From a virus, in IMG/VR virus record IMGVR_UViG_3300008450_000343, positions 1 to 28,392 of that record: a DNA stretch of 28,392 nucleotides, one strand, 5' to 3'. The stretch's first letter is position 1; each line of letters opens with the position of its first letter. The position numbers were made by a program, and so were the translations under genes. Under the pieces are notes generated by a model, which did no database searches, was not told where the DNA came from, and saw only the letters and a program-made list of their open reading frames with translations. Of the stretch, positions 8,963 through 26,481 are shown piece by piece.

Positions 8963-9187
8963 TTAACCCGGTAAATTATTCATGTACGGAAGTCCTTGTC
9001 CAGAAGGTGATACTGTTGGAGGTACTCCGTTTAAGTCTAATGAAGAAGGGCTTTGATCAATATTTGGTTGATCATTGATAGACGATTGGTAATGTAATGT
9101 TGATGTTGGATTAGCACTCGGTATTTGTGCCGGTGTTATTCCGTCTAATCCTAAGTTAGATGTTGGTAATAGATCTAATAGTCCCAT
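8963..9187 (-). CDS. small Pro/Ser-rich protein of unknown function
   Basis: A 74-residue protein (MGLLDLLPTSNLGLDGITP at the start, SPSGQGLPYMNNLPG at the end). It is rich in Pro, Ser, Asn and Gly, has almost no charged residues and is probably disordered. There is no signal peptide or membrane helix. It has its own upstream TATTTATA motif 20 bases before the ATG and lies between tape measure and the baseplate gene (10-base gap), so it is expressed as a late structural-region gene. It could be a virion filler, linker or assembly factor; no function can be assigned. Confidence 0.65.
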   Translation of the reverse strand: MGLLDLLPTSNLGLDGITPAQIPSANPTSTLHYQSSINDQPNIDQSPSSLDLNGVPPTVSPSGQGLPYMNNLPG

Positions 9188-9229: not shown

Positions 9230-11956
9230 TTATCTCATTGGATGTAGGTTAAGCCCTATAGCTTCATTTAATTTATTGGCTCCAATATGTATGTTTCCTC
9301 CTTGTTTAACTGCTACGATTAATTCATCTATCTTAGCATAGAACTCTCTTAATGGTATAACTGCTTCTGGACCTGCTTCTCCTACAACTGCTCTTGTAGC
9401 TCCTGTTACAATTCCTCCTGTAGCCATTTTCCTTTCTCCTGCTGGTGCAGTTGCTTTTGGAGCTTTTCCTCCTCCTGCAAAAGTATCTATTACCAATTTA
9501 CCTAAAGAAGGTCCTCCTATATAGTCTGAAATTGCTCCTCCTACCCATCTACCTAACATATCTCCTCCTGTATACGCTAAGGGTGCCATAAGCCATGACG
9601 GTATTCCCAATGCTGCTGGTGCTGATATTAAGGTTGCAGCTAAAGATCCTCCTAGTATACCCATTCCTGAACCTATAAGTGTTTTACCTGTTTCAGAATA
9701 AAGCTGGTCTTTTGTTAGGTCTTTTTGTGCTGCTAAGTCTGATATTGACATTCCTGCTGATAGAGCTTCTATTAGAGCTCCAACATACGGTATTTTCTTT
9801 AAAAGAGATCCTCCTGTTCCTTTTAAGAACTTAGGTACAAGTTTACCTATGTTTTTTCCTATCCATCCTATAAGGGCTTTTCCACCACTTTTTTCAAGCA
9901 CAAAGTTTCCTGCTCCTTTCACTGCTCCTCCAACTGCGGAAGCCCCACTCTTTATTCCTCCCCATGCTTTACCTGCAAGATTTTTCAATCCACTAAACAT
10001 TCCGCCGCCGCCTGCTTCTGCTGCTTGTTTACCTACATTACCTGCGGCTTTGTTAGCTGAGAATCTCATATCAGGTTTTCCTGATTTTGTTAACGGGCCT
10101 GCTGCTTCACCTGCTGCTGAAGCTGCACTCTTACCCATATTTCCTGATATTGCAGATTTTATTGGATTTACTATGGATTTACCTAACTGCAGTCCTGCTA
10201 ATAACACTATTGCAGCTGTTAGGGCTTTTATACTTGAATCAAGAGTATCCATTGTTTTTTGCAGTCCTTCAGGCCCTACTGCTTTAGCTACTGCTTCTGC
10301 AGCTTTTTTCTGCTCTAGCTGCATTCTCTCTGCTAACGTATTTGCATCTACTTGGTTTCTTAATTTCTTATCCCCAATTTCAGCTAACGCTTTTTCCATC
10401 CCTATTTCCTTGCCTTTAGAATCCTTCATACGAGCTCTCATAACCACTTGTTTTTGAAGATCTTCTAAAGACTGGGCATCTCTATATCCTGATTCTTTTG
10501 AAACTGTTTTTAACTGTTCCTGTAACGTTAATGAATTTCCTAATTCATCAGCAGACATTCCAAGCATCTTAGCAGTAGCTTCTTGCTCTATTCTGTTCAT
10601 TTTACCAAACGATGCTGCGGTAATTTGCTGCTTAGCTAACTCAGAGGTTAACGTTGTCATGTCGTTGGTCAAGGCAGCAGCTCTTGCTTTCTCCAGGTTA
10701 TATTCTTTTCCTGATAGTAATTCTGCTTCTAATTCATTTGCAATAGATGATTCAAAATCCAATAAACTATCTGCTGTTTTTTCAACCTGCGCCATACTCA
10801 TACCTAAACTCTTTGCTTGGTATACTGCTTGTGCTAGGTTTTGTCCTGAGGCTTTGAAGCTTAACTGTACTCGTGTGGAAGTGCTTGCTACTCCTTTTAG
10901 TATTTCTCTATTATCTATTTGGAGTTTTTTCTGACCATTTAATAGCTTAGTTTGAACGGTAATACTTGCTGTATAGTCCTTAGCATTCTTACCCATATTC
11001 ATAGAAGCTAAGCTGAATTGTGTAGCTTCTTCTGTACTAAGTCCCATTTGGTGATGCAAAGCTGCATAGTTTTCTGCCATATCAGCAGAAATTGCACCAT
11101 TACTTCCTAATGTTTTATTTATATCTTCCTGTGCTTCTTGAAATCTTTCTGAGTTAAAATATAATTTACCTGAAGCTTGAGAAGCATCTATCATAGCATC
11201 GTTCATCTTAAGAGCCTCTAATCGAGATACTCCTAAGTTACGTTGCATACTAACTGATCTTTCGTTTAATTTAGTGAATTCGTCAACTGCTGTACCTAGT
11301 ACTGCTCCTAAAGCTGCTTGACCTAGTCCGTTCGAAAGAACTTTTGCCCCTTCTCCCCAAGATTTCATCTTACTGTTTCCTTCCTGTAAACTGTCTCTAA
11401 AAGCTTTAGAGGCCTTAGTCATTTCAGGTAAAGCTTTATTCAGATACGGAATTTTTTCCATCATCTGTTTAAAAGGAGCGAAGACATCTACCTTAGATAT
11501 TTCTTCATACTTCTTTTTTAACTTGTCTGCATGGTCTAATTGAGACTCTATTGCATCGTCTACATCTTGAAGAATCTTAAGAGTTTTGTCAATATACTCC
11601 TGCTCCTTTTTAGTTGCAGTAGCTTTTCTATCTTCAAGTTCTGCAATTTTAGCTTGTACTCTAGCTTGATCTTGTTGTGACTTTAAAACTTTTTTATTAA
11701 ATTCTGCTTCAGTTTTCTTATCTGCTAATTGTTTTGCAGTATAGCCTGCTAACTCTTTAGCCGAATTAACAGCGTTTGAAAAGGAAGTTTGATATGCAGC
11801 TGCAGACTCTCCTGTAAATTTAGCAGCTTCTTTTGCATTCTTACTTAATGCATCTGCTAATTCTCTAAGTACAGTAGTTAGTCCAGAAGCTTCTTTATTG
11901 AATTCTTTTAGGTTTTTTAAATCTGCTGGTGAAACTGTACTCTTATTGACTGCCAT
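9230..11956 (-). CDS. tail tape measure protein
   Basis: A 908-residue protein with tape-measure architecture. The N-terminal 170 residues are a Lys/Glu/Ala-rich coiled coil (for example KVLKSQQDQARVQAKIAELE). Helical stretches extend to about 560. Hydrophobic segments follow near 580-605 (IKALTAAIVLLAGLQLGKS) and 740-825 (IPYVGALIEALSAGMS, MGILGGSLAATLISAPAALG). A Gly/Ala/Ser-rich region lies at 610-700. The end has the hallmark GGIVTGATRAVVGEAGPEAV. Tape measure proteins set tail length and exit with the DNA, often touching the inner membrane. At 908 residues against 590 for T4 gp29, a longer tail is expected. The gene directly follows the frameshifted chaperone, as in most long-tailed phages. 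A hairpin and a TATTTATA motif precede it. Confidence 0.92.
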   Translation of the reverse strand: MAVNKSTVSPADLKNLKEFNKEASGLTTVLRELADALSKNAKEAAKFTGESAAAYQTSFSNAVNSAKELAGYTAKQLADKKTEAEFNKKVLKSQQDQARVQAKIAELEDRKATATKKEQEYIDKTLKILQDVDDAIESQLDHADKLKKKYEEISKVDVFAPFKQMMEKIPYLNKALPEMTKASKAFRDSLQEGNSKMKSWGEGAKVLSNGLGQAALGAVLGTAVDEFTKLNERSVSMQRNLGVSRLEALKMNDAMIDASQASGKLYFNSERFQEAQEDINKTLGSNGAISADMAENYAALHHQMGLSTEEATQFSLASMNMGKNAKDYTASITVQTKLLNGQKKLQIDNREILKGVASTSTRVQLSFKASGQNLAQAVYQAKSLGMSMAQVEKTADSLLDFESSIANELEAELLSGKEYNLEKARAAALTNDMTTLTSELAKQQITAASFGKMNRIEQEATAKMLGMSADELGNSLTLQEQLKTVSKESGYRDAQSLEDLQKQVVMRARMKDSKGKEIGMEKALAEIGDKKLRNQVDANTLAERMQLEQKKAAEAVAKAVGPEGLQKTMDTLDSSIKALTAAIVLLAGLQLGKSIVNPIKSAISGNMGKSAASAAGEAAGPLTKSGKPDMRFSANKAAGNVGKQAAEAGGGGMFSGLKNLAGKAWGGIKSGASAVGGAVKGAGNFVLEKSGGKALIGWIGKNIGKLVPKFLKGTGGSLLKKIPYVGALIEALSAGMSISDLAAQKDLTKDQLYSETGKTLIGSGMGILGGSLAATLISAPAALGIPSWLMAPLAYTGGDMLGRWVGGAISDYIGGPSLGKLVIDTFAGGGKAPKATAPAGERKMATGGIVTGATRAVVGEAGPEAVIPLREFYAKIDELIVAVKQGGNIHIGANKLNEAIGLNLHPMR

Positions 11957-11984: not shown

Positions 11985-12011
11985 AAAAGGCATCATTTTT
12001 TTGATGCCTTT
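11985..12011 (-). terminator. hairpin overlapping the end of the chaperone extension
   Basis: There is a perfect 10-bp stem (AAAGGCATCA with TGATGCCTTT) with a loop of six A on the minus strand. The stop codon TGA of the extension lies inside it. The following bases are TACTATTTAT, a poor U-tract, so it may be a weak terminator, an attenuator limiting read-through into the tape measure gene, or a 3'-end stabiliser. Confidence 0.55.
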
Positions 12012-12253
12012 GTTATATATGTGGATTCTTTAGCCTGTCTCTCTATAAGAGCTCTCTTTATTCCTTCCTGTACTGCTTTGTCGGCGTTACTTTCTTCCTT
12101 CTCCTGGTAGAATTCATATAGTTTATTATATGTGAATTTTCTCAACCAAAGAGGCATATTGTAGACAGTGTTCCAATCGTAACCTCCTTTTCCGAAAAAC
12201 ACTATATCATGTATTTGTGTAAATACTCCAAGCCTATATTCTGGCGTCAGGCC
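11993..12253 (-). CDS. C-terminal extension of the tail assembly chaperone, reached by ribosomal frameshift
   Basis: The frame is open from 12268 to the TGA at 11993. From 12253 it encodes 86 residues: GLTPEYRLGVFTQIHDI, then VFFGKGG, then YDWNTVYNMPLWLRKF, ending in a charged helix. The first 17 residues look fully protein-like but have no ATG; the first standard start is the GTG at 12202, which would discard them. The frame overlaps the end of the gp26-like gene at a run of seven T and is +1 (or -2) relative to it. This is the classic layout of the paired tail chaperones that bind the tape measure protein in long-tailed phages. A fused product would be about 328 residues. Independent translation from the GTG remains possible, though no Shine-Dalgarno is present. 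Confidence 0.75.
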   Translation of the reverse strand, partial: GLTPEYRLGVFTQIHDIVFFGKGGYDWNTVYNMPLWLRKFTYNKLYEFYQEKEESNADKAVQEGIKRALIERQAKESTYITKASKK

Positions 12254-12980
12254 AAAAAAAGGTAATCCCTATCGGCAAATCGACGTCCTCCTCTTCGCCT
12301 GTTGAATTTGTTACTGTTGTACTTAGGTCTAAGTCTGGATTTATACTACTGTAGTATTTTCTAAATTCCCTAGCATCTCTTGCAAGGAAATAGTTATTTA
12401 CAAAATCTCTAATGTCTTTTTGATCTCTATTTCCGTTAATAGATGTAACTAAATATGCAAGTCGTACTGTAACGTCGCTTATGCTATCTTTATTTATCTT
12501 CTGTAATCCTTTTACTTCTTGGTCAATTTTTATATCTTCTCCGTGTGTTAAAAGTTTAAAGGTAATTACATTTCCTGTACTTGGAAGTGTAAATGTAAAT
12601 TCATTCTCTGTTGCTTTTTCTAATTCCGGGGCAAGAGGTTTTGGTTCAATATTACTTAAATCAACAGTCTGTTTAACTCCGTCATACTCAAACTCATACT
12701 CCTTTCCGTATGCTAAGATACGTGCTGCAACCATCATAGCATTCTTATCTCCTACTAGTATGTCATTATAATTAACATCCGATACTATTAACGATTGTAA
12801 AAGTTTGTCTATAACAACTCCCTGTTTAATGTAATTTGCGTTTGTTAAAATATCCTCTTCTTTAGCAGTCATATATTTCATTTCAATTTTTCCTGATGCT
12901 AGAGGGGAATCTTTTGGGTAAAGTAATCCTTTTGAAGGAAGTTCTACTGTTTCAGTAGGTAGTTTAAATTTTTGTTCCAT
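12234..12980 (-). CDS. gp26-family tail assembly chaperone / baseplate hub assembly protein
   Basis: A 248-residue protein matching the T4 gp26 baseplate-assembly family: LPSKGLLYPKDSPLASGKIE near the N-terminus, MKYMTAKEEDILTNANYIK, VIDKLLQSLIV, then a beta domain (YEFEYDGVKQTVDLSNIEP) and a helical end. It lies between the tail tube and tape measure genes, the position of tail assembly chaperones, which keep the tape measure soluble during tail growth. The last residues, GITFFWPDARI, are read across a run of seven T at 12254-12260, where a shift into the next frame would replace WPDARI by the 86-residue extension. The short form would be the abundant product and the fused form the minor one, as in other phages. 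The ATG at 12980 is followed by EQKFKLPTETVELPS, which fits the family start. Confidence 0.85.
   Translation of the reverse strand: MEQKFKLPTETVELPSKGLLYPKDSPLASGKIEMKYMTAKEEDILTNANYIKQGVVIDKLLQSLIVSDVNYNDILVGDKNAMMVAARILAYGKEYEFEYDGVKQTVDLSNIEPKPLAPELEKATENEFTFTLPSTGNVITFKLLTHGEDIKIDQEVKGLQKINKDSISDVTVRLAYLVTSINGNRDQKDIRDFVNNYFLARDAREFRKYYSSINPDLDLSTTVTNSTGEEEDVDLPIGITFFWPDARI
12254..12260 (-). promoter_or_regulatory. probable programmed frameshift site (run of seven T)
   Basis: The minus-strand mRNA reads ACC UUU UUU UGG in the gp26-like frame. If the tRNA-Phe on the second UUU slips one base forward, the next codon is GGC and translation enters the GLTPEYRL frame. A -2 slip on the same run gives the same frame. 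A -1 slip would instead hit UGA within three codons, so it is excluded as the productive event. Confidence 0.7.
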
Positions 12981-13089: not shown

Positions 13090-13578
13090 TTAGTAATTTA
13101 ATACACAATAATCCATTGCTATTGAGATTCCTATCTCTACTAATCCGTCAGCAGAAGTCCAGTCAAATTGTCCAAAGTCTCCTTTTGTTAAGAAAGCTCC
13201 TTTAATAATCCACTCTCCTACGATATCCCCTACAGGACCTAAGATGTTAAGAGTTAAATCTTTTTTGTAGAAATCAGAGTAACCAGCTCTACCAGTTACT
13301 GATTCATATCCTAGACGTGCCCATTCCATTACTGCTTGAGCTCCTGAAGGAGTGATTGGTGAATATAGAGTCATATCCATATCTTGCCATTCTCTTTTTC
13401 CTCTTATTTTTCTGTAAGAGTTGATGTGGTCAAGTTTAATTGCATTATCTGTAAAGTTCGGTGCTTTCACGTTTTTAACCATGAATGCTGGGATATTGTC
13501 TATATACATTACGAACCTGTGCTGAACCATTGGTTCGAAGGCTCTGAACATTATTTCGTTTGGATCTAATACTGCCAT
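13090..13578 (-). CDS. tail tube protein (T4 gp19-like)
   Basis: A 162-residue protein of the size and pattern of T4 gp19. It contains FEPMVQHRFVMYIDNIPAFM (14-33), VKNVKAPNFTDNAIKLDHIN (35-54), REWQDMDMTLYSPITPSGAQ (62-81), the helix VMEWARLGYESVTGRAGY, and DLTLNILGPVGDIVGEWIIK followed by GAFLTKGDFGQFDW. These are the beta strands and helix of the contractile tail inner tube. It forms the rigid hexameric tube inside the sheath through which DNA passes. It follows the sheath gene by 45 bases and has its own TATTTATA motif 21 bases before the ATG and its own terminator, consistent with high late expression. Confidence 0.92.
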   Translation of the reverse strand: MAVLDPNEIMFRAFEPMVQHRFVMYIDNIPAFMVKNVKAPNFTDNAIKLDHINSYRKIRGKREWQDMDMTLYSPITPSGAQAVMEWARLGYESVTGRAGYSDFYKKDLTLNILGPVGDIVGEWIIKGAFLTKGDFGQFDWTSADGLVEIGISIAMDYCVLNY

Positions 13579-13623: not shown

Positions 13624-15777
13624 TTATCCAAAAGTTGCTCCTGTTGGTTCGATTGTGAAATCTAATACAACAAATTCAATTGTTTTAGCTGGTTGAATAA
13701 ATATTTGACCTATTAATTGATTTCTATCAACTACGTCTGCTGTGTTATTAGTATCGTCCATTACAACTCTGTATGCATAAAGACCTTGTCTTTGTACTAC
13801 TGATTCTAGATAAGGATTAACTGTCGCTAAGAATCTATTTCTAGTTGCAATAGTATTTTGTTCGAATACTAAGTTTCTTGCTTGGTCACCAATGAACTTC
13901 TTAAGTTCTATTAATAAACGTCTAACGTTTACTCTATCTAAAGCTGATGCTTTAGTTTGTAAAGTTTTCTGTCCGAATACTGATATACCTGTTCCTGGGA
14001 ATGTAGCGATTGGATTAACTTTAGCTGCATAAAGAGTGTCTCTATCACCTTTAGTTAATTTTCTTTCTGCTTGAATTACTCCTCCAATTCCACCTCTTAC
14101 AAGTCCTGCTGGTGCAAACCATGGTGCTGAAGCTGCATCTGTAAATGCATATACTCCTGGAATAACTGTTCCTGCTGGAGTCCATTCGTTTCTACCTGTA
14201 GCAGATTTGATTTGTAACCATGGCCAGTAAGTTGCTGCATATGAACTATTCAATGAAGCTGCTTGTGCTGTTACGTTTGTTACTGCTGGTTCGCTCAATC
14301 CAACTAAGTCTATTACTGCGATACAATCTCCTCTATTTTCTGCTAATGAAATGAAAGAGTTTACTATAGAAGTGAAAGCACTGTTTTTGTAGATTAGACC
14401 TGGTGTTGATATAATATTAAATTGGTACTCATCTTTATTTGCAAGTAGTGATAAAGCTACATTATAGTTTGCTGCTACTAATCCTTGTGCATCTGTAGAT
14501 GTATTTGTAATATCTCCAAAGAACTTAGCTCCTGCTTTAACTGCTCCTGATGCTCCGTAAAATGAACCTGAGGTTACTTGCGGTAATGATGCTGAGTATG
14601 ATAGGTTGTTTGCATCTTTGTTAACTGTTATACCATCGTTTGCTAAGTAGTAGTTTGTTGGTAAATTAATTGCACTTACTCTAACATAGTTAGAAGCATT
14701 TGGATATTCACCTACTGTAGTGTTATATGATACTCCTGAAGTTGAGTCCGTAGCTACTGTTACGTACTGGTTACCAATTACTTTTTCAATGTAATTATCT
14801 GAATTTGGATCAAGATTTACAGTAAATGTCTCTAAGATAGTTTTATTATTTGCACTATCGTCTCCTTGTCTTATAATTAAAGAAAATGTTCCTAATGCAT
14901 TGTTTACGTTTGCAATTTCCCATCTTACGTTATCTGCAGATCCAGATACTAAAGATCCATCTGAGTTTAAAGCTCCTGAATCTGTAGCTGATGTTGAGTT
15001 GTTATATATAGTTCCTTTTCCTAAAGTTTGTATTTGAAATACTGCAGTTCCAGTTGCTCCACTAAAATAAGTAGTAGTACTTCCGGATACATAACTATAC
15101 CCATTCAACACAGTAGATAATACATTTGTTCCTATTTGAGAAGCAGATGTAAATAAGTCTAATCCTGTAGTACCGTTTATACTTGCTGATATGTTAGATA
15201 GGTTAGCACTGTAGAATGCGTTTGATCCACTAACGTTAATAGAGTTAACAATATTGTTAATTGTTGTTTGAGGAGTAGATCCTGTTGGAATATACATTAA
15301 GTTTGCTGCATTAATTAATGCACCTGTTCCTACTTGTGCTACACCTCCTGATACTGCAAGGGTAACTCCGTTTAATGTAAAAGTTCCTGATGGTGTAATG
15401 AATGGTGCTAAGCTTGCACTAGAGATTGCAAGAGATGCTGTTGAAGCTAAAATTCCACTTGAAATTGTTGTATTGCTAGCTGCTGTGTATGATCCCGATA
15501 CTACTCTGGTTACTAAGGCTGTTTGCCCACCATTTTGGAAATAGTTCTTAACTGCTACAGAAGTAAGGAATTCGTATTGCTTGTTAGAAGCTGATAAAAA
15601 TGTTTCACCAAACTTTCTTACGTAGTCACTATAAGATGTAACAATGAGAGGCTGGTTATTCGGCCCTTTAACTGTTGGTCCAACAAATGCTGCTCCTGCC
15701 TGAATTGGTGCTGGTGTGATATAAGAGATATCGTTTTCTCTTGTATATACTCCTGGAGAGATAATTGATTCTGCCAT
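13624..15777 (-). CDS. tail sheath protein (T4 gp18-like)
   Basis: A 717-residue contractile sheath protein. The N-terminus IISPGVYTRENDISYITPAP and GAAFVGPTVKGPNNQPLIVT with SYSDYVRKFG (about 48-57) are the standard sheath start. The C-terminal third (about 515-717) is the conserved core: WTPAGTVIPGVYAFTDA, VNPIATFPGTGISVFGQKTL, LDRVNVRRLLIELKKFI, VVDRNQLIGQIFIQPAKTIE and FVVLDF. The middle (about 95-450) is Ser/Thr/Asn/Gly-rich and beta-like, presumably the variable surface domains inserted into the core. The sheath surrounds the tube and contracts on infection. A long 142-base leader with a hairpin and a TATTTATA motif precedes it. Confidence 0.93.
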   Translation of the reverse strand: MAESIISPGVYTRENDISYITPAPIQAGAAFVGPTVKGPNNQPLIVTSYSDYVRKFGETFLSASNKQYEFLTSVAVKNYFQNGGQTALVTRVVSGSYTAASNTTISSGILASTASLAISSASLAPFITPSGTFTLNGVTLAVSGGVAQVGTGALINAANLMYIPTGSTPQTTINNIVNSINVSGSNAFYSANLSNISASINGTTGLDLFTSASQIGTNVLSTVLNGYSYVSGSTTTYFSGATGTAVFQIQTLGKGTIYNNSTSATDSGALNSDGSLVSGSADNVRWEIANVNNALGTFSLIIRQGDDSANNKTILETFTVNLDPNSDNYIEKVIGNQYVTVATDSTSGVSYNTTVGEYPNASNYVRVSAINLPTNYYLANDGITVNKDANNLSYSASLPQVTSGSFYGASGAVKAGAKFFGDITNTSTDAQGLVAANYNVALSLLANKDEYQFNIISTPGLIYKNSAFTSIVNSFISLAENRGDCIAVIDLVGLSEPAVTNVTAQAASLNSSYAATYWPWLQIKSATGRNEWTPAGTVIPGVYAFTDAASAPWFAPAGLVRGGIGGVIQAERKLTKGDRDTLYAAKVNPIATFPGTGISVFGQKTLQTKASALDRVNVRRLLIELKKFIGDQARNLVFEQNTIATRNRFLATVNPYLESVVQRQGLYAYRVVMDDTNNTADVVDRNQLIGQIFIQPAKTIEFVVLDFTIEPTGATFG

Positions 15778-17890: not shown

Positions 17891-20056
17891 TTATGCTAAT
17901 GTAACCCATGTGTTGTCTGGGCAGAAATAAATTTGATCACTTGTTGTACTCTGTACATATCCAATTATTCTCACTACCTGCCCTGTAGTTGAAGGTACTG
18001 TTTGTGTAAATCCTCCTGCTGTTGGAGAAACATATAATTTTGCTCCTATTGTTGTAACTCCTGTATATAGTGAATTTGCTGTAAATCTAGCATGACCTCT
18101 TAGAAGCATTCCTACACTACCAGCTGTTCCTGTTGCTTGTGCAATACCTAACATTCCTGTTGATGTAGATTCACTGTCTGCATCTGCTGCTGTCCAGTTT
18201 CCTGATGAATCGTAATAGTACAGGTTACCTGCTGTTACGGATCCTCCTCCCCAGTATGCTACTTCTCCTGTTACTGATGCAGTACCTATAGCACTGTTAT
18301 GCTCTATCGGCTGTTGAAATTTTAGGAAACCTGTGGCTGTTTGAAAGACTGTGTTTCCTCCTTGACCATATAGGGTACTTCCATAGCCATTTCCATTCCA
18401 ATCTCCTATTGCTAAGTCCCCTCCATCACTGTAGATTCCGGTTGTGTTAAGATCTACCTCTATGTTACTTGCAATAATTCTGTTTGCCGAGCTATCTATT
18501 GTAAGTGTAATATTTGCTGCTGAACCAAAACGTTGTATTTGGTCATTTGGATCTCTTTCCCACCAAGTTCTTGTATTATTACCTGGTGTATCGTAAGCTC
18601 CGTCTATATCAATAGAGTTATGGTGTCTCCAAGTAGTCCAGGTTGTACCTGTAGCATCTCTGTAGGCATAGTCTTTTACATATACATTGTTTCCTCCTGA
18701 TCCTCCTAGTGTCTGTAAAGTCTGGAGTTTTAAATTATTTCCTGCAGTTCCTCCTAACGATGCTGTTTGATAAACATGCCATATACCTTGAGGAGATGAT
18801 TGATTAACTGCTAATGAACCTTTTGCTATATTTACATTATTAAATACAGATCCAGGGCCTCCTCCTAAACTTATAGTAGTACCTGCAGCGGCTGTTAGCA
18901 CACAGATCCCTAAGTAGTTAAAAAGTGCATGTCCTCCATTTAAGTTAACTGAACTACCTGAAATTGTAGTTACTCTTATTTGATTATCATTTGGATTATA
19001 GGTGAAAGTTCCTGATTCTGAATCTTGTAATAATCCGTAATTACCTGTTGTATTACCGGTATGATTAATAAAAGGTATTTTAAAGTAACTATTTGTAGCA
19101 GATGTGGTTGCAGTTACATTTGTAGCGTTTGTTGCAGTTGTAGCTGTTGTAGCTGTTGTAGCTGTTGTTGCATTTCCTGATAAAGCTCCTATAAAAGTTG
19201 TAGCTGTTAATGCGTTAGTTGATGCATTATAACTAAATGCAGTAGCAGTTGTTCTAACTTTAGGGGTTTGATTACTTCCTGCAGCACCTACTGTTACTGG
19301 GTATAGTAGTGTTGTAGTTGTGTCATTTGTAGCATTAATCGCTGTGGAAGGACCAGTTGCACCTGTTACTCCAATGGCTCCTGTTGCTCCACTTACTCCC
19401 ACTACCCCTGTTGCCCCAGATACCCCGATTACACCTGTTGCACCGCTTACTCCGATTACACCTGTTGCCCCTGTTAATCCGGTTGCTCCAGATACTCCGA
19501 TTACTCCGGTTGCACCACTAACACCTATGACTCCAGTTGCACCACTTACTCCTACCGGACCTGTTGCTCCTGTTACTCCTACCGGACCTGTTGCTCCTGT
19601 TACACCAACTGCTCCAGTTGCTCCTGTTAAACTCAAACTTGTATTATATGCTAACGCTTTTGTAGTTGTGTTAAATACTACTACATTTGTATCTGCAGAT
19701 GTTCCTAATGAAACTGCTTTAATGGATCCGCTTAATTGTAAAGAATTATTTGATCCAGAAATTACAATTGCTTCAGCTCCGTATTTTCCTATTTTAACAG
19801 TATTGTCAGCAAATGCTTCTATTACTGGAAGTCCTGCTACGGTGTTTACTGAGAATAAAGAATCAGATAAATCATCAGATACTGAGAATAATCTTCCGTT
19901 ATTTCCGTCTATTGAAAATAATTCTGTTCTTCCGGTTGACCCTGAACCATATAGGGTTAGGGATCCGGAAGGATCTTGTGTTATTCTTTCTATGTAATTT
20001 AATGAACTTGTAAAGCTCATTATTGCATTTCCGGGTACTATTCTAATATCTGGCAT
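17891..20056 (-). CDS. collagen-like tail fibre protein
   Basis: A 721-residue fibre. Residues 1-143 are an N-terminal head with [20 protein letters not shown] and [19 protein letters not shown] repeats typical of fibre attachment domains. Residues 144-237 are an uninterrupted Gly-X-Y shaft, mostly GATGVIGVS and GATGPVGVT units. Residues 293-322 are an Ala/Thr repeat (GNATTATTATTAT) that often marks a trimeric coil in phage fibres. The C-terminal 400 residues are beta-rich with many Asn/Gly/Tyr ([36 protein letters not shown]) and probably include the tip; the end is [20 protein letters not shown]. It is almost certainly a trimeric fibre for host contact, placed just before the methyltransferase gene. 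Confidence 0.82.
19130..19171. repeat. short tandem repeats coding for the Ala/Thr coil
   Basis: Tandem copies of a 9-base unit (gtagctgtt on the plus strand) encode the ATTATTATT segment of the collagen-like fibre. Slippage here would change coil length in frame. Confidence 0.6.
19346..19627. repeat. collagen-like Gly-X-Y coding repeat of the 721-residue fibre
   Basis: These 282 bases encode residues 144-237 of the fibre, built from repeating 9- to 18-base units for [18 protein letters not shown] and related triplets. Codon choice varies among units, so the array is not a fresh expansion. The same units occur in the 989-residue fibre. Confidence 0.85.
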
Positions 20057-20057
20057 A

Positions 20058-20399
20058 TTATTCTAAAGTTTGTAAGGGTGCTGTCCACTCTTCCGTTGAT
20101 AATATATGAAGAATTTCTTCATGATTATACTCTGTATCACCTTCCTGATAAATACTTGGTCTTCCGTATATTCCTGCAAGAGTTGTAGAAGTTGTTTCTT
20201 CTCCTGTTATAAGATTAGTTCCTGTATGTACTATATCCTCTAACACTTCATTTATTTCATATTTAATAAAAGTCTTAGTACCGTCTACAGATAGTCTTAA
20301 ACTCTCTGGTGATGACTCTAAGACTTGATTGAAATCAATCGATCCTGTCATACTGGTTGGTATTATCAACCATCTTCTATTTGGAAATTGTGTACTCAT
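20058..20399 (-). CDS. small fibre-operon protein of unknown function
   Basis: A 113-residue protein starting [20 protein letters not shown], then [31 protein letters not shown] and a C-terminal [15 protein letters not shown]. Trp and Ile near the N-terminus and a short amphipathic end suggest a small alpha/beta fold. It sits 12 bases after a LamG protein and 1 base before the collagen-like fibre, tightly coupled to both. It might be a fibre-specific chaperone or a virion adaptor. I do not recognise a family. Confidence 0.65.
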
Positions 20400-20411
20400 A
20401 TATAATAAATA

Positions 20412-21521
20412 TTAACTTAAGTTGAATCTTGTTTTATAATGTAAATAATTTTGTCTTATTTCTGCTCCTGATAGTCCTCTATTGTATAATTTCATCACAG
20501 GGATTTTTCCGTTTAGAACCTCACCTCCGCTTGTATTGGTTCCCATTCTAAAAGAATTAGTACCTATATTTGTACTGTTAGTTGCTGTGTTTACTAACAC
20601 TCCGTTTAAGTATAGTTTACAGGTTCCTGATCCGTCTCTTGTAGCGGCAGCATAATACGTTCCTGGACCTAGAGAGGAAGGGAAATAACAGCTACCGTTT
20701 ATGTACAGTCCGTACCTACCCATAAATTGAAGAGAACTTGCAGGATAATTTCCTATAAGAGTGTGTGTATCTGTTGTGTTTAGTGTATATACAGTCTCTA
20801 TAGTAAATGCTCCTGTTCCACTAAACGGGGCATACCCTAAATCAATGTAATCATTCGTACCATCGAAAGTTATTTGAGCATTTGAATCAAAAGATACGTT
20901 TGTTAAATCTATTGTTGAATTTCCTACCAATGGTAAAAGTCCTTGTGTTGCTGATCTTGTTGTATTAGCAGTTGTAAACTGAGTAGCGTACGATTTAGTC
21001 TCTACTTGCCAATCTGTTACATAGCATGTTCCTGTTTGAGAGGAATTAAACCCTGCTAACCATACTGGGGAAGATGTGCCGCCTCCTGTTGTTTGGCATA
21101 AATACCATCCGTCTTCTAAAGGAGTAACAGTTACTCCTGGGTAAAAGTAGTCTGCATCTGTATAAATGTACCCTACTACAAAGGAAGGTACTTTTCCATC
21201 TGCCCATTTCATTTTCCATGAAAATGTAAAGATAGTACTACTAGTTGCTGTAAAGTTTCCCGGTCTTCCTGCTCTGTATAAATTCCACTGTCCTACAGAT
21301 ATAACCCTTACTGACGGTCTTCCTCTATAGGTTATGTTGTAATCAGCTGTTTGACTAACAAGATTTGCTCCATAATCATTATTAAAATTAGCAACCGTAA
21401 CATTAAAGAGTACTAAATTTGTAGTAGGCTGTCCAATATAGCTATTTCTAGTATCTGCTACGTCATAAGCAAACACCGATCCTGATGTGACTGTTTTTCC
21501 GTATCCTTGTGCTACTGCCAT
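20412..21521 (-). CDS. two-domain lectin-like adhesin with C-terminal LamG domain
   Basis: A 369-residue protein. Residues 30-190 look like a jelly-roll carbohydrate-binding module: LYRAGRPGNFTATSSTIFTF near 81-100, DGWYLCQTTGGG, and YVTDWQVETKSYATQF. Residues 207-369 form a LamG/concanavalin A-like domain: ITFDGTNDYIDLGYAPFSGT, FTIETVYTL, YYAAATRDGSGTCKLYLNGV and KLYNRGLSGAEIRQNY. The C-terminus NYLHYKTRFNLS parallels the ends of the two other LamG proteins here. It is probably a virion-surface sugar-binding protein. It lies 1 base after the previous adhesin gene. Confidence 0.75.
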   Translation of the reverse strand: MAVAQGYGKTVTSGSVFAYDVADTRNSYIGQPTTNLVLFNVTVANFNNDYGANLVSQTADYNITYRGRPSVRVISVGQWNLYRAGRPGNFTATSSTIFTFSWKMKWADGKVPSFVVGYIYTDADYFYPGVTVTPLEDGWYLCQTTGGGTSSPVWLAGFNSSQTGTCYVTDWQVETKSYATQFTTANTTRSATQGLLPLVGNSTIDLTNVSFDSNAQITFDGTNDYIDLGYAPFSGTGAFTIETVYTLNTTDTHTLIGNYPASSLQFMGRYGLYINGSCYFPSSLGPGTYYAAATRDGSGTCKLYLNGVLVNTATNSTNIGTNSFRMGTNTSGGEVLNGKIPVMKLYNRGLSGAEIRQNYLHYKTRFNLS

Positions 21522-21522
21522 A

Positions 21523-22797
21523 TTATAAACCGTATTTACTTTTATGCATTTTAAAATTAGCTTCTATTTCAAGTGGAGTAAGTGCCGTATTATGTACTGT
21601 AACTTGTGAGATTAAAGTACCTGCTGGTGCTGGATTACTTCCGTTGTTTGCGTTTCCAATCATAAGAGGTACGTTATTGTTCCAAGTATGTGTTCCTCCT
21701 GAATAGCTAGATGTTCTCAATCCTTGGGCATCCCACACGTAAATGTACCTAGTACTTCCTTCTTGTACAGCATTCAAGTATACCCATTTTCCATAATCTC
21801 TTCCTGCATCTTTAGCAATATACGGAGCATTTGCACTATTCCAAGCCAAAGCCATAAATCCATTTCCATTCCATCCGTATCCTAATGCCATTCCGTAAGT
21901 CGCTGATGAAGATTTTCCTACTATGCCACAACTTGCATCTGATGCAAAATTTACCCAGCAAGAAAGTGTTTTATCTCCTGCTATATCCAGAGCTGTTGAA
22001 TCAGTTACAGAAACGTAATCGTTACTTCCATCAAAATACATTGACCCTCTTGCTTTAATTGGAAGTCCAAAATTAACATGTGCTACTTGTGCAGCATTTG
22101 TTGTATAATTTTCATATACCCATCCAAAAGCATTTCCTGTTCCTAGACCTGGTCTTCCTATTAGTATCCACTCTGGTGCTGCTATATAGTCTGAGTCAAT
22201 ATACCCTGTAGGCATTCCTAAGTCATATAGAATTGTTCTTAGAGCTGCTGTATATTGATCAGCTCTATGTGATCCTGCTACAATAAATGTACAGTTCGGA
22301 AAAGTACTCTTCAGTGTATTATAATCTGAGATAAATAAACCTATTTCATATAAGTACCCTGTTTCTGCTCCTGAGTAGTTGTCGTAGCAATGTCCTGCTA
22401 ATCTTGCTCCTCTAAAGTATGTTGTACCTCCATTATCAATCCAGGAGTTTGTATCGTTATTATACACCCATAGGTGTAGTGCTCTTGAAGCATCATACAG
22501 TTTTCCTCCAGACCTTACATCATATCCTGGTGTTATTCCTTGTCTACCTGCTCCATCTCCTCCATAAGAGCCTTCAGGATAGTCGATAGCAAAAGCTGTA
22601 AAAAAATCTCTTCCGGTCAACTTCATACCATTCATAAATTGGTAGATCGTTCCATCTAGTATGTTTTTTATACCTTGATTGGCTGTAGTAAAACCTCCAC
22701 ACCCTAGAGGAGTTATTCCCAAAGCAGTATCATTAGTATCTGTTAAAAATACTAAACTCTGTTTTGCTGATATTTTTGGTCCTGATGATGTTGGCAT
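21523..22797 (-). CDS. adhesin with an ILEI/FAM3-like middle domain and C-terminal LamG domain
   Basis: A 424-residue protein. The C-terminal part (248-424) is a LamG domain (GSMYFDGSNDYVSVTDSTAL, TLSCWVNF, KWVYLNAVQEGSTRYIYV and a final NFKMHKSKYGL). The middle part (about 105-230) reads RALHLWVYNN, EIGLFISDYNTLKSTFPNCT, FIVAGSHRAD, TILYDLGMP, then APEWILIGRPGLG. That order (self-directed strand, stepwise time/length phrase, V-A-x-x-D, L-x-x-L-G, W-I-L-I-G) resembles ILEI/FAM3-type domains known from vertebrate cytokine-like proteins and some phage fibres. This is a weak match by eye. The first 100 residues are Gly-rich and unassigned. It is probably a receptor-binding or virion decoration protein. 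Confidence 0.7.
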   Translation of the reverse strand: MPTSSGPKISAKQSLVFLTDTNDTALGITPLGCGGFTTANQGIKNILDGTIYQFMNGMKLTGRDFFTAFAIDYPEGSYGGDGAGRQGITPGYDVRSGGKLYDASRALHLWVYNNDTNSWIDNGGTTYFRGARLAGHCYDNYSGAETGYLYEIGLFISDYNTLKSTFPNCTFIVAGSHRADQYTAALRTILYDLGMPTGYIDSDYIAAPEWILIGRPGLGTGNAFGWVYENYTTNAAQVAHVNFGLPIKARGSMYFDGSNDYVSVTDSTALDIAGDKTLSCWVNFASDASCGIVGKSSSATYGMALGYGWNGNGFMALAWNSANAPYIAKDAGRDYGKWVYLNAVQEGSTRYIYVWDAQGLRTSSYSGGTHTWNNNVPLMIGNANNGSNPAPAGTLISQVTVHNTALTPLEIEANFKMHKSKYGL

Positions 22798-22798
22798 G

Positions 22799-23512
22799 TT
22801 ATAGTCCGTATCTTGTTTTGTTTACATTGTAATTGTCCTTAACCTGCTGTGCTGTTAATGCTCGGTTATATACTCTAAATTGAGAAAAAGATCCTTTATA
22901 AGGAGCACCGCCTGCGTAGTACGTTCCTAAGGCATATCCATTAGAACCTCTTCCCATACCGCCATTGTGAAAATTATAATTCGTAGTACCATCAACATAT
23001 GTTCCGTTTACGTATGTTCTAAGGTACCCTGTGTTACTATCAGTCACAGTGTTTCCAAATACCCATGTGAAAATATTCCACGTATTGTTGACCCAGTATC
23101 CCATTCCTCCAGGATAGTCTCCGCTAGGGCTGCCTGGAAAGTAATGAGATCCCATACAGCCGTAATGGCAGTAGAACATTGGTCCGTAGTTACCATTGGT
23201 TCCCATAGAAATAACTCCATAAGATGATCCTTGATCTAATCCGTTGTGAAAAAACATTAACTCTAATGTAAAGTCAGAATGACTTCCTGGTAGTGTTGTG
23301 TTTCCTATCCAGTCGTTAGATCCGTCTAATGTTAGTGCTTTAACTCCGTTAATAGTTGTAAAAGAAACCCCGTTATATAAATCTCCGTTATAACCACCTC
23401 CGCTCAAGTCGTACCAAGTCGTTCCAGATCCTGGATAGGAGTTTATATCTGCTGCGTCTAAATTAAGTATTAATCCATCCTTAATTACTTTTGGTCCATA
23501 AATTTCAGCCAT
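22799..23512 (-). CDS. single-domain LamG adhesin
   Basis: A 237-residue protein that is nearly all one LamG/concanavalin A-like domain: LILNLDAADINSYPGSGTTW (a common phage start for this fold), WYDLSGGGYNGDLYNGVSF, LTLDGSNDWIG, FTLELMFFHNG, NTWNIFTWVFG, LRTYVNGTYVDG and SQFRVYNRALTAQQVKDNY. It ends in NVNKTRYGL. The start codon shares one base with the fibre stop (TAATG), so it is translationally coupled to the 989-residue fibre. It probably binds a host glycan or decorates the fibre. It is shorter than the two neighbouring LamG proteins because it lacks an N-terminal extra domain. Confidence 0.82.
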   Translation of the reverse strand: MAEIYGPKVIKDGLILNLDAADINSYPGSGTTWYDLSGGGYNGDLYNGVSFTTINGVKALTLDGSNDWIGNTTLPGSHSDFTLELMFFHNGLDQGSSYGVISMGTNGNYGPMFYCHYGCMGSHYFPGSPSGDYPGGMGYWVNNTWNIFTWVFGNTVTDSNTGYLRTYVNGTYVDGTTNYNFHNGGMGRGSNGYALGTYYAGGAPYKGSFSQFRVYNRALTAQQVKDNYNVNKTRYGL

Positions 23513-26481
23513 TACTTATCGAATTCTGTTATCAATTTTCCAATATCCTTTCTTTCAGCAAATACTGTATAGAAGCAGTTTATCTCATTTTCTGATCCTA
23601 CTGTAATAGCAGTGTCTGATACTGTTTCTACCCATAGGTTTTGATGTTTACCTATTGGTGTTAGATTTACAGTAGTTGTATCTTTATATACAAGAGCATG
23701 CCAATAATCTGGAAGTGTAATTATATTACTATTTACTAATCTTCCTCTTACGTATACTGAATGTTCTGGTCCTTCTAATACTCCGTATTGAAGTTTTTTA
23801 CCTTCTTTGGTTGGGTGATCAATGATGAACGATTTTACAGTTGCAAGTAATGTACCTGTCACAGTTAAAGTACTTCCGTCAAATGTTAGATTAGATTCAC
23901 CATTTACTGTTGAACCTCCTGTTGCTGTAAGAACGTAGTTATTAGTATTATTTACTACACTCAAAGTAGCTCCTGTTGCTCCAACTGGTCCAGTTGCTCC
24001 TGTAACCCCGATTGGTCCAGTTGCACCACTTACTCCAATCACACCCGTTGCACCTGTTACCCCAACTGGTCCGGTTGAACCTGTTAGTCCGGTAGCTCCG
24101 CTTACACCTACTACACCAGTTGCTCCAGTTAAACCTGTTGCCCCAGATACTCCGACTACCCCAGTAGCGCCTGTTACTCCTACCGGACCTGTTGCTCCGC
24201 TAACACCAATTACTCCAGTTGCTCCTGTAAGTCCTGTAGCACCGCTTACTCCCACTACTCCAGTAGCACCTGTTACTCCAACTGGTCCTGTTGCACCTGT
24301 TAAACCTGTTGCTCCGGATACTCCGATGACACCTGTAGCTCCTGTTAATCCCGTTGCTCCGCTTACTCCAACTACACCTGTTGCTCCAGTTACCCCTATT
24401 GGTCCTGTTGCACCTGTTAAACCTGTTGCTCCGGATACTCCGACTACTCCTGTAGCACCGCTCACACCTGTTGGTCCTACTACACCTGTTGCCCCTGTTA
24501 CTCCTACTGGTCCGGTTGCACCGGTTACACCAATTGGTCCAGTAGCCCCAGATACTCCAATGACTCCGGTAGCTCCGGTAGCCCCTGTTTGCCCTTTATC
24601 CCCTGTTGTTACAAATGATATAATAATATCTTCGTTATTTGTAAAAGGTGAAGTTGCTGAAGATGCTTGGTTTGTTACTGTAAGTGTCCACCAGCCTGTA
24701 TTATTTGTTAGAGCTGATATTTGAAATAATAAGAATTGAGTAGCATCTGTTCTATTTGCTATTCTTACGTATCCTTTAATTAATGATGTTACACTATTTA
24801 TTGTGGTTAAAAATGATGAAATATCTGTACCTTGGTCATTTAGTGAGTCGACGTACATTGCTGTTGCAGCATTTTCTGTAGCACTATTTAATCTTACTTT
24901 TCCTTGTCCCGGGTCTGATGCTGTAAGTGTTGTATCGTATGTATAATCAAAAGTAGCTCCACCAAAAGATCCATCAGCACCAGTTGCTCCAACTGGACCT
25001 GTAGCACCTGTTACCCCTGTTGGCCCTATCAGACCTGTTGCACCAGATACCCCTATTACTCCTGTTGCTCCGCTTACACCTATTACACCTGTTGCTCCAC
25101 TTACTCCAGTTGGCCCTGTAAGTCCTGTAGCTCCTTGCGGTCCTGTAGCTCCTGTTAATCCTGTTGCACCTGTTATACCAGTTGCTCCTTGAATACCTGT
25201 CGAACCTGTAAGTCCTGTTGCTCCTGTCAAACCTGTTGCTCCACTCACACCTACTACCCCTGTAGCACCGGTTAATCCTGTAGCACCTGTTAAACCAGTC
25301 GCTCCTGTAAGACCGGTTGCACCACTTACTCCTATTACTCCTGTAGCACCAGATACTCCAGTTGGTCCGGTTAATCCCGTAGCTCCACTTACTCCGACTA
25401 CTCCCGTAGCTCCGCTTACTCCTGTTGGTCCTGTAAGGCCTGTTGCTCCTTGAGGTCCTGTTGCTCCGGTAGGACCTGTTGCACCTGTTGGTCCACCTGC
25501 TAATAAGTCAGTTCCTACACCTGGTGCTGCTGCTGTAAGATCTATGAAAGCTCCTCTTGCTGCTCCTCCCTGTTCAAAGAATCTTAATCTATTTTGCCAT
25601 ACGTCGACAGTAATTCCACTACCTGTAAGTGATGTATTAGTTGCTGCTTTTCCTAAAAGAATTTCTCCTCCTTCGTCTCCTGCTTGATACAGTACACTTA
25701 GTTTTTGACCGTCAAATTGAAGTAGTGATTCGCCATTTATTGTTCCATTTCCATTAGCAGTTAATACATAATTATCTGTATTATTTGTAATGGCTGGTGT
25801 TATGTTTGAAGCTGTTAGAGCATTTGATGAGCTTATTACATTCTGAATTGAAGATGTTGCTATTGGAATTGCTACACCGTTTGAATTACCGACCCAAGTA
25901 TATCCTTGTTGAATGTTTGGTACTTCATTGTAGTATCCTGGTCCATTAATAACTCCTGAACCATTAGAGGCATGTGATTTCTCTACATTACCTAACTTTT
26001 GTATTAATACTGAAGAGCCTGTAGGTCTTATATTTGTATACCCTCCTCCTACTGCTACATATATTGAATCTCCTGCTGCAAAAGCAGAAGTATTTACATT
26101 TCCTATATATCCGTTTATTAATCCTACTCCTTCTGCACCTGCTGTTAAAGTCTCTCCTGCTATTACTCCGGCTGGCATTCTTAAGGGATTACTAGCATCC
26201 GCTGGCCATACTCCTGCTAAATTTCCTGATGTTCCTGAACCTGTTATGTAACAAGGTGTACCTTTTTGAATAGTAACTCCAGAAACGTTTTTGATAATAA
26301 TTGCTGTATTTTCTACAGGTGAGAATGATAAATTTCCTGCACCATCAGTTATAAGAACTTGACCTGGTGTACCGTCTGTGGTAGGGTATATTAATCCACT
26401 TGCAGTAAGTGATGTAGAAACATTAAGAGAGTTTAAAGCAGCATTTGAGCCGCTAATTATGACTTTTTTCCAACTTGGCAT
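23512..26481 (-). CDS. large collagen-like tail fibre with two Gly-X-Y shafts
   Basis: A 989-residue fibre. N-terminus [20 protein letters not shown], which resembles the start of the 410-residue protein. Residues 60-200 contain [20 protein letters not shown] and [20 protein letters not shown], a beta domain common in phage fibres. Residues 330-503 and 627-839 are collagen-like Gly-X-Y shafts ([21 protein letters not shown]). A 508-625 beta domain sits between them. The C-terminal 884-989 domain, with [58 protein letters not shown] and [12 protein letters not shown], recurs at the end of fibres in many marine and freshwater T4-like phages and may be a tip or trimerisation domain. It begins the adhesin operon. 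Confidence 0.85.
23965..24603. repeat. second collagen-like coding repeat of the 989-residue fibre
   Basis: These bases encode residues 627-839, built from [15 protein letters not shown] and GATGPVGVT units. The middle units are highly similar to each other, so length variation by recombination is likely. Confidence 0.85.
24973..25494. repeat. first collagen-like coding repeat of the 989-residue fibre
   Basis: These bases encode residues 330-503. The units are richer in GLTGATGLT and GPTGVS than the second shaft and include three PQGATGLT blocks, so the two shafts are not simple duplicates. Confidence 0.85.

Follow-up and report, generated by a model that had tools for sequence, protein, structure and literature searches.

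Few uses of recoding are as widespread as frameshifting in tail chaperone genes. In phage lambda, the G/GT pair is located before the tape measure gene, and a -1 shift adds a low-abundance, out-of-frame C-terminal extension. A review of 2016 described the G-T frameshift as conserved among long-tailed phages except T4, with a -2 shift in Mu and a probable +1 shift in HSTV-2 (PMC5009743). For T4-like phages, the link of the gp26 family to tail chaperones is not new and is credited to Vladimirov, Gautam and Davidson (2022) by the citing papers PMC10885494 and PMC12846349; according to these, some T4-like phages carry a short gene together with a fused long one, and their chaperone genes contain poly-T -1 signals. 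When T4 gp26/gp51 (TAC-N/TAC-NC) is compared with the locus described here, common are the PF12322 N-terminal family, a homologous C-terminal extension and the presence of a short and a long form. The -1 members among the T4-like phages have a U-rich site at two phenylalanine codons (FF), as have the relatives of our locus. T4 has two genes and other T4-like phages use -1, whereas the clade described here is assigned a +1 shift at UUU_Y with a base other than T before the run. In the literature searched, which covers Vladimirov et al. (2022) through citing papers, no report of a +1 form in the PF12322 chaperone family was found; the +1 form, its spread, the switching of direction and a synonymous signature appear to be new.

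The window, the whole stretch of 28,392 nucleotides that was analysed, carries on its minus strand a contractile-tail module with the genes for sheath (13624-15777), gp19-like tail tube (13090..13578; phrog_4542, E 1e-16), a gp26-like protein (12234..12980) and tape measure (9230..11956; phrog_1535, E 1e-6). The gp26-like gene thus lies downstream of the tube gene and upstream of the tape measure gene, a likeness to lambda in arrangement, with +1 in place of -1 as the proposed shift. In T4 itself, genes 26 and 51 are situated away from the tube gene. A 74-aa ORF of unassigned function (8963-9187) separates the tape measure gene from the next tail gene, and tail-fibre-like ORFs with many collagen-like GATG-type repeats occupy 17891-26481. 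The gp26-like gene codes for 248 residues with matches to PF12322 (27.6 bits, cut-off 24.5) and phrog_150 (E 7e-12).

We are confident that a single tail assembly chaperone is made from this locus in a short and a long form, the long one arising by a +1 slip at UUU UUU UGG. The majority of ribosomes would translate the short form of 248 residues. In a minority, the P-site tRNA-Phe would move one base forward onto the overlapping UUU (or UUC), and translation in the +1 frame would add 86 residues to give a long form of 328 residues. By analogy with lambda G/GT, the tape measure protein may be bound by both forms, with tube subunits recruited through the extension. We infer that the slippage is ribosomal, and likewise its direction and its efficiency.

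Reading frames and their conservation

The zero frame terminates at CTTTTTTTGG, and its product ends in GITFF-WPDARI, encoded at CTTTTTTTGGCCTGACGCC. The slippery run TTTTTTT (12254..12260, minus strand; CTTTTTTTGGCCTGAC) is read TTT TTT T|GG. Across this run the +1 frame is open to 11993 and reads FF|GLTPEYRLGVFTQIHDI, followed by a GTG at 12202, YDWNTVYNMPLWLRKF and a stop at 11995-11993; the extension of 86 residues plus stop (11993..12253, minus strand) results in a fusion protein of 328 aa. Both frames overlap at 12234..12253 on the minus strand, where WPDARI and its stop in the zero frame face GLTPEY in the +1 frame; in 81 of 83 clade members the site continues with CCTGAC. As the original prediction had it, the gp26-like frame overlaps with an open frame, and a -1 shift leads straight to a stop, the sequence being TTG GCC TGA with termination after two codons. 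A lambda-type -1 shift was rejected for the window: the run is preceded by C, an X_XXY_YYZ heptamer is absent and TGA closes the -1 frame.

The comparison comprised 80 IMG/VR loci as well as several isolate phages, and 83 clade members including the window were scored. The +1 frame was open through the site in 83/83, among them Flavobacterium phage immuto 2-6A, an isolate with a complete genome and a conserved site. Two extensions were shortened (33 and 4 residues), one of them (L085) at a contig end. The dual-frame pattern is not due to chance. The extension has the consensus FGLTPEYRxxLFxQIHEIVFHGKGGYDWxTVYNMPIWLR, and the residues before the first ATG are its most conserved ones (G100, L100, R100, H98, G100, G100). 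Within the extension, the ratio pN/pS was 0.40 (residues 8-19) and 0.35 (residues 20-53), with synonymous sites near saturation.

This conservation bears on the origin of the extension. An independent small protein, started at the GTG (12200..12202, minus strand) or by re-initiation past the zero-frame stop, would dispense with slippage. A GTG is indeed present in the window, annotations of KVP40 and cyanophages list the extension as a separate ORF, and two loci (L109, 1501-2540; L114, 1501-2510) have lost the slippery site and encode the extension in an ORF of its own with an ATG directly after the zero-frame stop. However, conservation covers the 17 residues preceding the GTG, where a start codon is absent, and does not include the GTG: the first ATG, GTG or TTG was at that position in only 7 of 81 extensions. 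In the window, no ATG precedes NMP in the extension, and no ATG, GTG or TTG occurs in the +1 frame between the upstream stop and the T-run. The first ATG was at residue index 33 or higher in 75/81 extensions; with GTG and TTG counted as well, 70/81 had no start before index 28, and in 32/83 loci the +1 frame had no start codon ahead of the site either. Most cyanophage-type loci have their first ATG at codon index 21, past the conserved residues, and the extension of SRB7757 is devoid of methionine. An independent origin is thus extremely unlikely, and the claim that slippage rather than initiation produces the residues before the GTG is supported by the alignment of the 86-residue extension, in which conservation reaches the T-run across relatives. 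An extension with a start codon of its own, named beforehand as a refuting case, exists in L109 and L114, but both are nested inside the +1 clade in the tree, so that the split is most likely a derived loss. The separate ORF in these loci means that the fusion is not indispensable everywhere.

In immuto 2-6A (MW353175), the sole annotation for the C-terminal part of the extension is a 36-aa 'hypothetical protein' (L001, 4354-4464), a probable mis-annotation.

Slippery site and direction of the proposed shift

The motif TTTYTWTGG was present in all 83 scored members, as TTTTTTTGG in 64, TTTCTTTGG in 18 and TTTCTATGG in one. A sister group (L099-L113 except L109) has TTC TTT TGG (TTCTTTTGG), and more distant sites are TTT CTA TTC in LR756508, TTT TTT CAC in SP-15, TTT TTT AGT in LIS04 and TTC TTT CGT in GXN1. 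The seven-T run proposed originally is one variant, although the prevailing one. Common to TTTTTTTGG, TTTCTTTGG, TTTCTATGG, TTCTTTTGG, TTCTTTCGT and TTTTTTCAC is an in-frame UUU_Y. Since an in-frame UUU is followed by U or C in every variant, the P-site tRNA-Phe would be able to re-pair after a +1 move; and because TTTCTTTGG, TTTCTATGG and TTCTTTTGG occur besides seven T, the site rule read from the aligned loci calls for a pyrimidine after UUU rather than for a homopolymer. At the RF2 site, CUU is the codon that shifts most readily, and UUU is one of those ranking next (review, PMC10885494).

The variants discriminate between mechanisms as well. RNA polymerase could add or drop a U in the T-run, and a run of seven T in 64 of the 83 members would suit such transcriptional slippage. 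However, the run is broken to TTTCTTT or TTTCTAT in 19/83, and only four consecutive T are left in the L099 group, in each case with the same extension; of the alternatives, this is the least probable. A -2 ribosomal shift as in Mu would enter the identical open frame, with one extra residue, and would also re-pair on seven U. In relatives with TTC TTT TGG or TTT CTA TGG it would place the P-site tRNA mismatched on UCU or UUC, while +1 re-pairs on UUU_U or UUU_C. Full -2 re-pairing is impossible in the TTCTTTTGG and TTTCTATGG relatives, and we regard a -2 shift as very unlikely. From the earlier alternative '+1 (or -2)', the +1 slip is thus favoured and the -2 shift disfavoured. The tail chaperones of Mu and of the halovirus HSTV-2 are likewise made via a shift into the +1 frame (PMC5009743), in Mu by -2 and in HSTV-2 probably by +1; HSTV-2 is an archaeal myovirus, and the comparison with the window family is by frame only.

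A re-pairing site, a conserved +1 frame and the lack of an alternative start, criteria for a programmed +1 site, were found together. In the RF2 gene prfB, with CUU UGA C, the P-site tRNA slips by +1 from YUU onto UUU, a move like the one proposed here; CTT TGG C is present in 18 relatives. RF2 has a stop codon in the A site, whereas the window clade has the sense codon UGG and no conserved upstream Shine-Dalgarno (SD) sequence, an SD-like sequence being present upstream of the site in only 38/83. Downstream of the +1 site, no conserved signal for a stimulatory RNA structure was detected in the clade (mean z -0.6).

Relation to gp26 and gp51 of T4

T4 gp26 and gp51 share a paralogous region of about 200 residues, beyond which gp51 has about 45 more at its C-terminus. 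When a profile of the window extension was run against 2843 ORFs, taken from all six frames of distant phage loci, the best 13 matches were all predicted extension ORFs. After removal of close relatives, the top 8/8 of 2838 ORFs retrieved by the location-blind HMM were predicted out-of-frame or gp51 ORFs, compared with 0 to 3 for 60 column-shuffled profiles and 0 in the top 12 for the reversed profile. An iterative HMM search starting from the window extension matched T4 gp51 over the whole stretch that follows the FF junction; E was 1.4e-6 one round ahead of inclusion and 6e-12 thereafter. Inclusion was at E < 0.05, which renders later single E-values optimistic. The extension of RM378 was not recovered in this search, and Kuja and Ps15 stayed non-significant. 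Direct alignment of extension and gp51 by hhalign was weak (E 0.0036, probability 9%), so the link to gp51 needs intermediates. The PHROG matches of extension members were all weak, the families hit most often being a tail assembly chaperone (9/52) and the gp51 family phrog_634 (3/52). Taken as sequence comparisons, these results support the assignment of the extension to the C-terminal domain of T4 gp51 and of the zero-frame protein to the T4-type short chaperones.

Gene copy numbers were inspected in complete genomes. Two PF12322 copies were found in T4, Aeromonas phage 31 and RB43, and a single match in nine complete phages with a short gene and an out-of-frame extension; the search missed the known gene in the window record, immuto and Mel-JY01, so that single-copy counts cover the phages with a match.

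Short form and extension were modelled separately. The AlphaFold model of the short form had a pLDDT of 91.7, and with VIA-align only four PDB chains reached Z 2 for its first ~95 residues, among them YqbN (3klu; Z 5.8, rmsd 4.3, 88 aligned), the HK97 tail assembly chaperone (2ob9; Z 4.8, rmsd 3.7, 79 aligned) and a PICI-like protein (Z 4.1). Foldseek alone gave non-significant E-values (2ob9, E 1.2), and sequence searches of the PDB returned nothing relevant. The model-based likeness to solved tail assembly chaperones weakly backs the gp26-chaperone link. The extension was predicted as three helices, confident over the first ~50 residues, with no fold match at E <= 0.001. The earlier proposal that the gp26 family belongs to the frameshifting tail chaperones is strengthened by synteny and by the homology of the extension to gp51, and weakly by the fold.

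Two adjacent UniProt accessions of Leptospira phage LE4, A0A343LED6 and A0A343LED7, gave fold matches to the short form and, weakly, to the extension; the models suggest a similar arrangement in a spirochaete phage.

Phages with a -1 site and history of the family

In KVP40, Syn1, P-SSM2, phiAS5, Astolliot, Ps15, SRB7757 and Atu_ph07 the site is T_TTT_TTC with the extension in the -1 frame, in XacN1 and RAS14 it is T_TTT_TTT, again with the extension in -1. The heptamer TTTTTTC was present in 80/80 cyanophage-type IMG/VR loci. Locus scans with the XacN1 query yielded none, those with GXN1 and KVP40 few. The annotated 'gp51' of -1 phages was described in 2010 as being without the first ~200 residues (PMC3037559) and probably represents the C-terminal piece of a protein made by frameshifting. 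In cyanophages, KVP40 and Flavobacterium phages, the small ORFs labelled 'gp51' or 'hypothetical' are likely mis-annotated fragments of this kind, derived from the C-terminus of a longer protein.

The codon before the run differs between both groups. In +1 phages it is AAC, ACC, AGC, ACA, GAC or AAG (ACC in the window, 12261..12263, minus strand) and never ends in T, the base that would complete a -1 heptamer: 0/83 against 47.1 expected from codon usage, or 0/44 against 26.0 in the non-redundant set. In the -1 phages it is AAT, AGT or TCT, ending in T in 80/80 (58.6 expected), and FF is always encoded as TTT TTC. Naive probabilities of this contrast assume independence and are hence overstated; its direction is clear. 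This base in front of the U-run may determine which way the ribosome slips.

A tree of the shared domain (46 rows, midpoint root) separated, with support of 100/100, a side with T4, cyanophages and KVP40 (-1 or duplicated) from the window clade, Thornevirus, RM378 and jumbo phages, the rooting leaving the direction of the first change undefined. The side of the window clade consists of +1 phages and a subset that uses -1, the T4 duplicates cluster together (92/87), and the distribution of +1 and -1 requires at least three changes. On balance, we favour a single family that switched among -1, +1, duplication and splitting at the same FF junction, with a synonymous base (T for -1, non-T for +1) helping to set the direction. 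The two genes of T4 would then be one outcome in a family exchanging -1 and +1 sites at one homologous junction. Natural -1/+1 pairs, a few bases apart, allow tests of what sets the slippage direction on U-rich sites.

Several cyanophage-type loci (within L130-L209) had unusually stable stems right after T_TTT_TTC (mean z -2.2, nine loci), possibly a -1 stimulator of a type not seen in the +1 clade.
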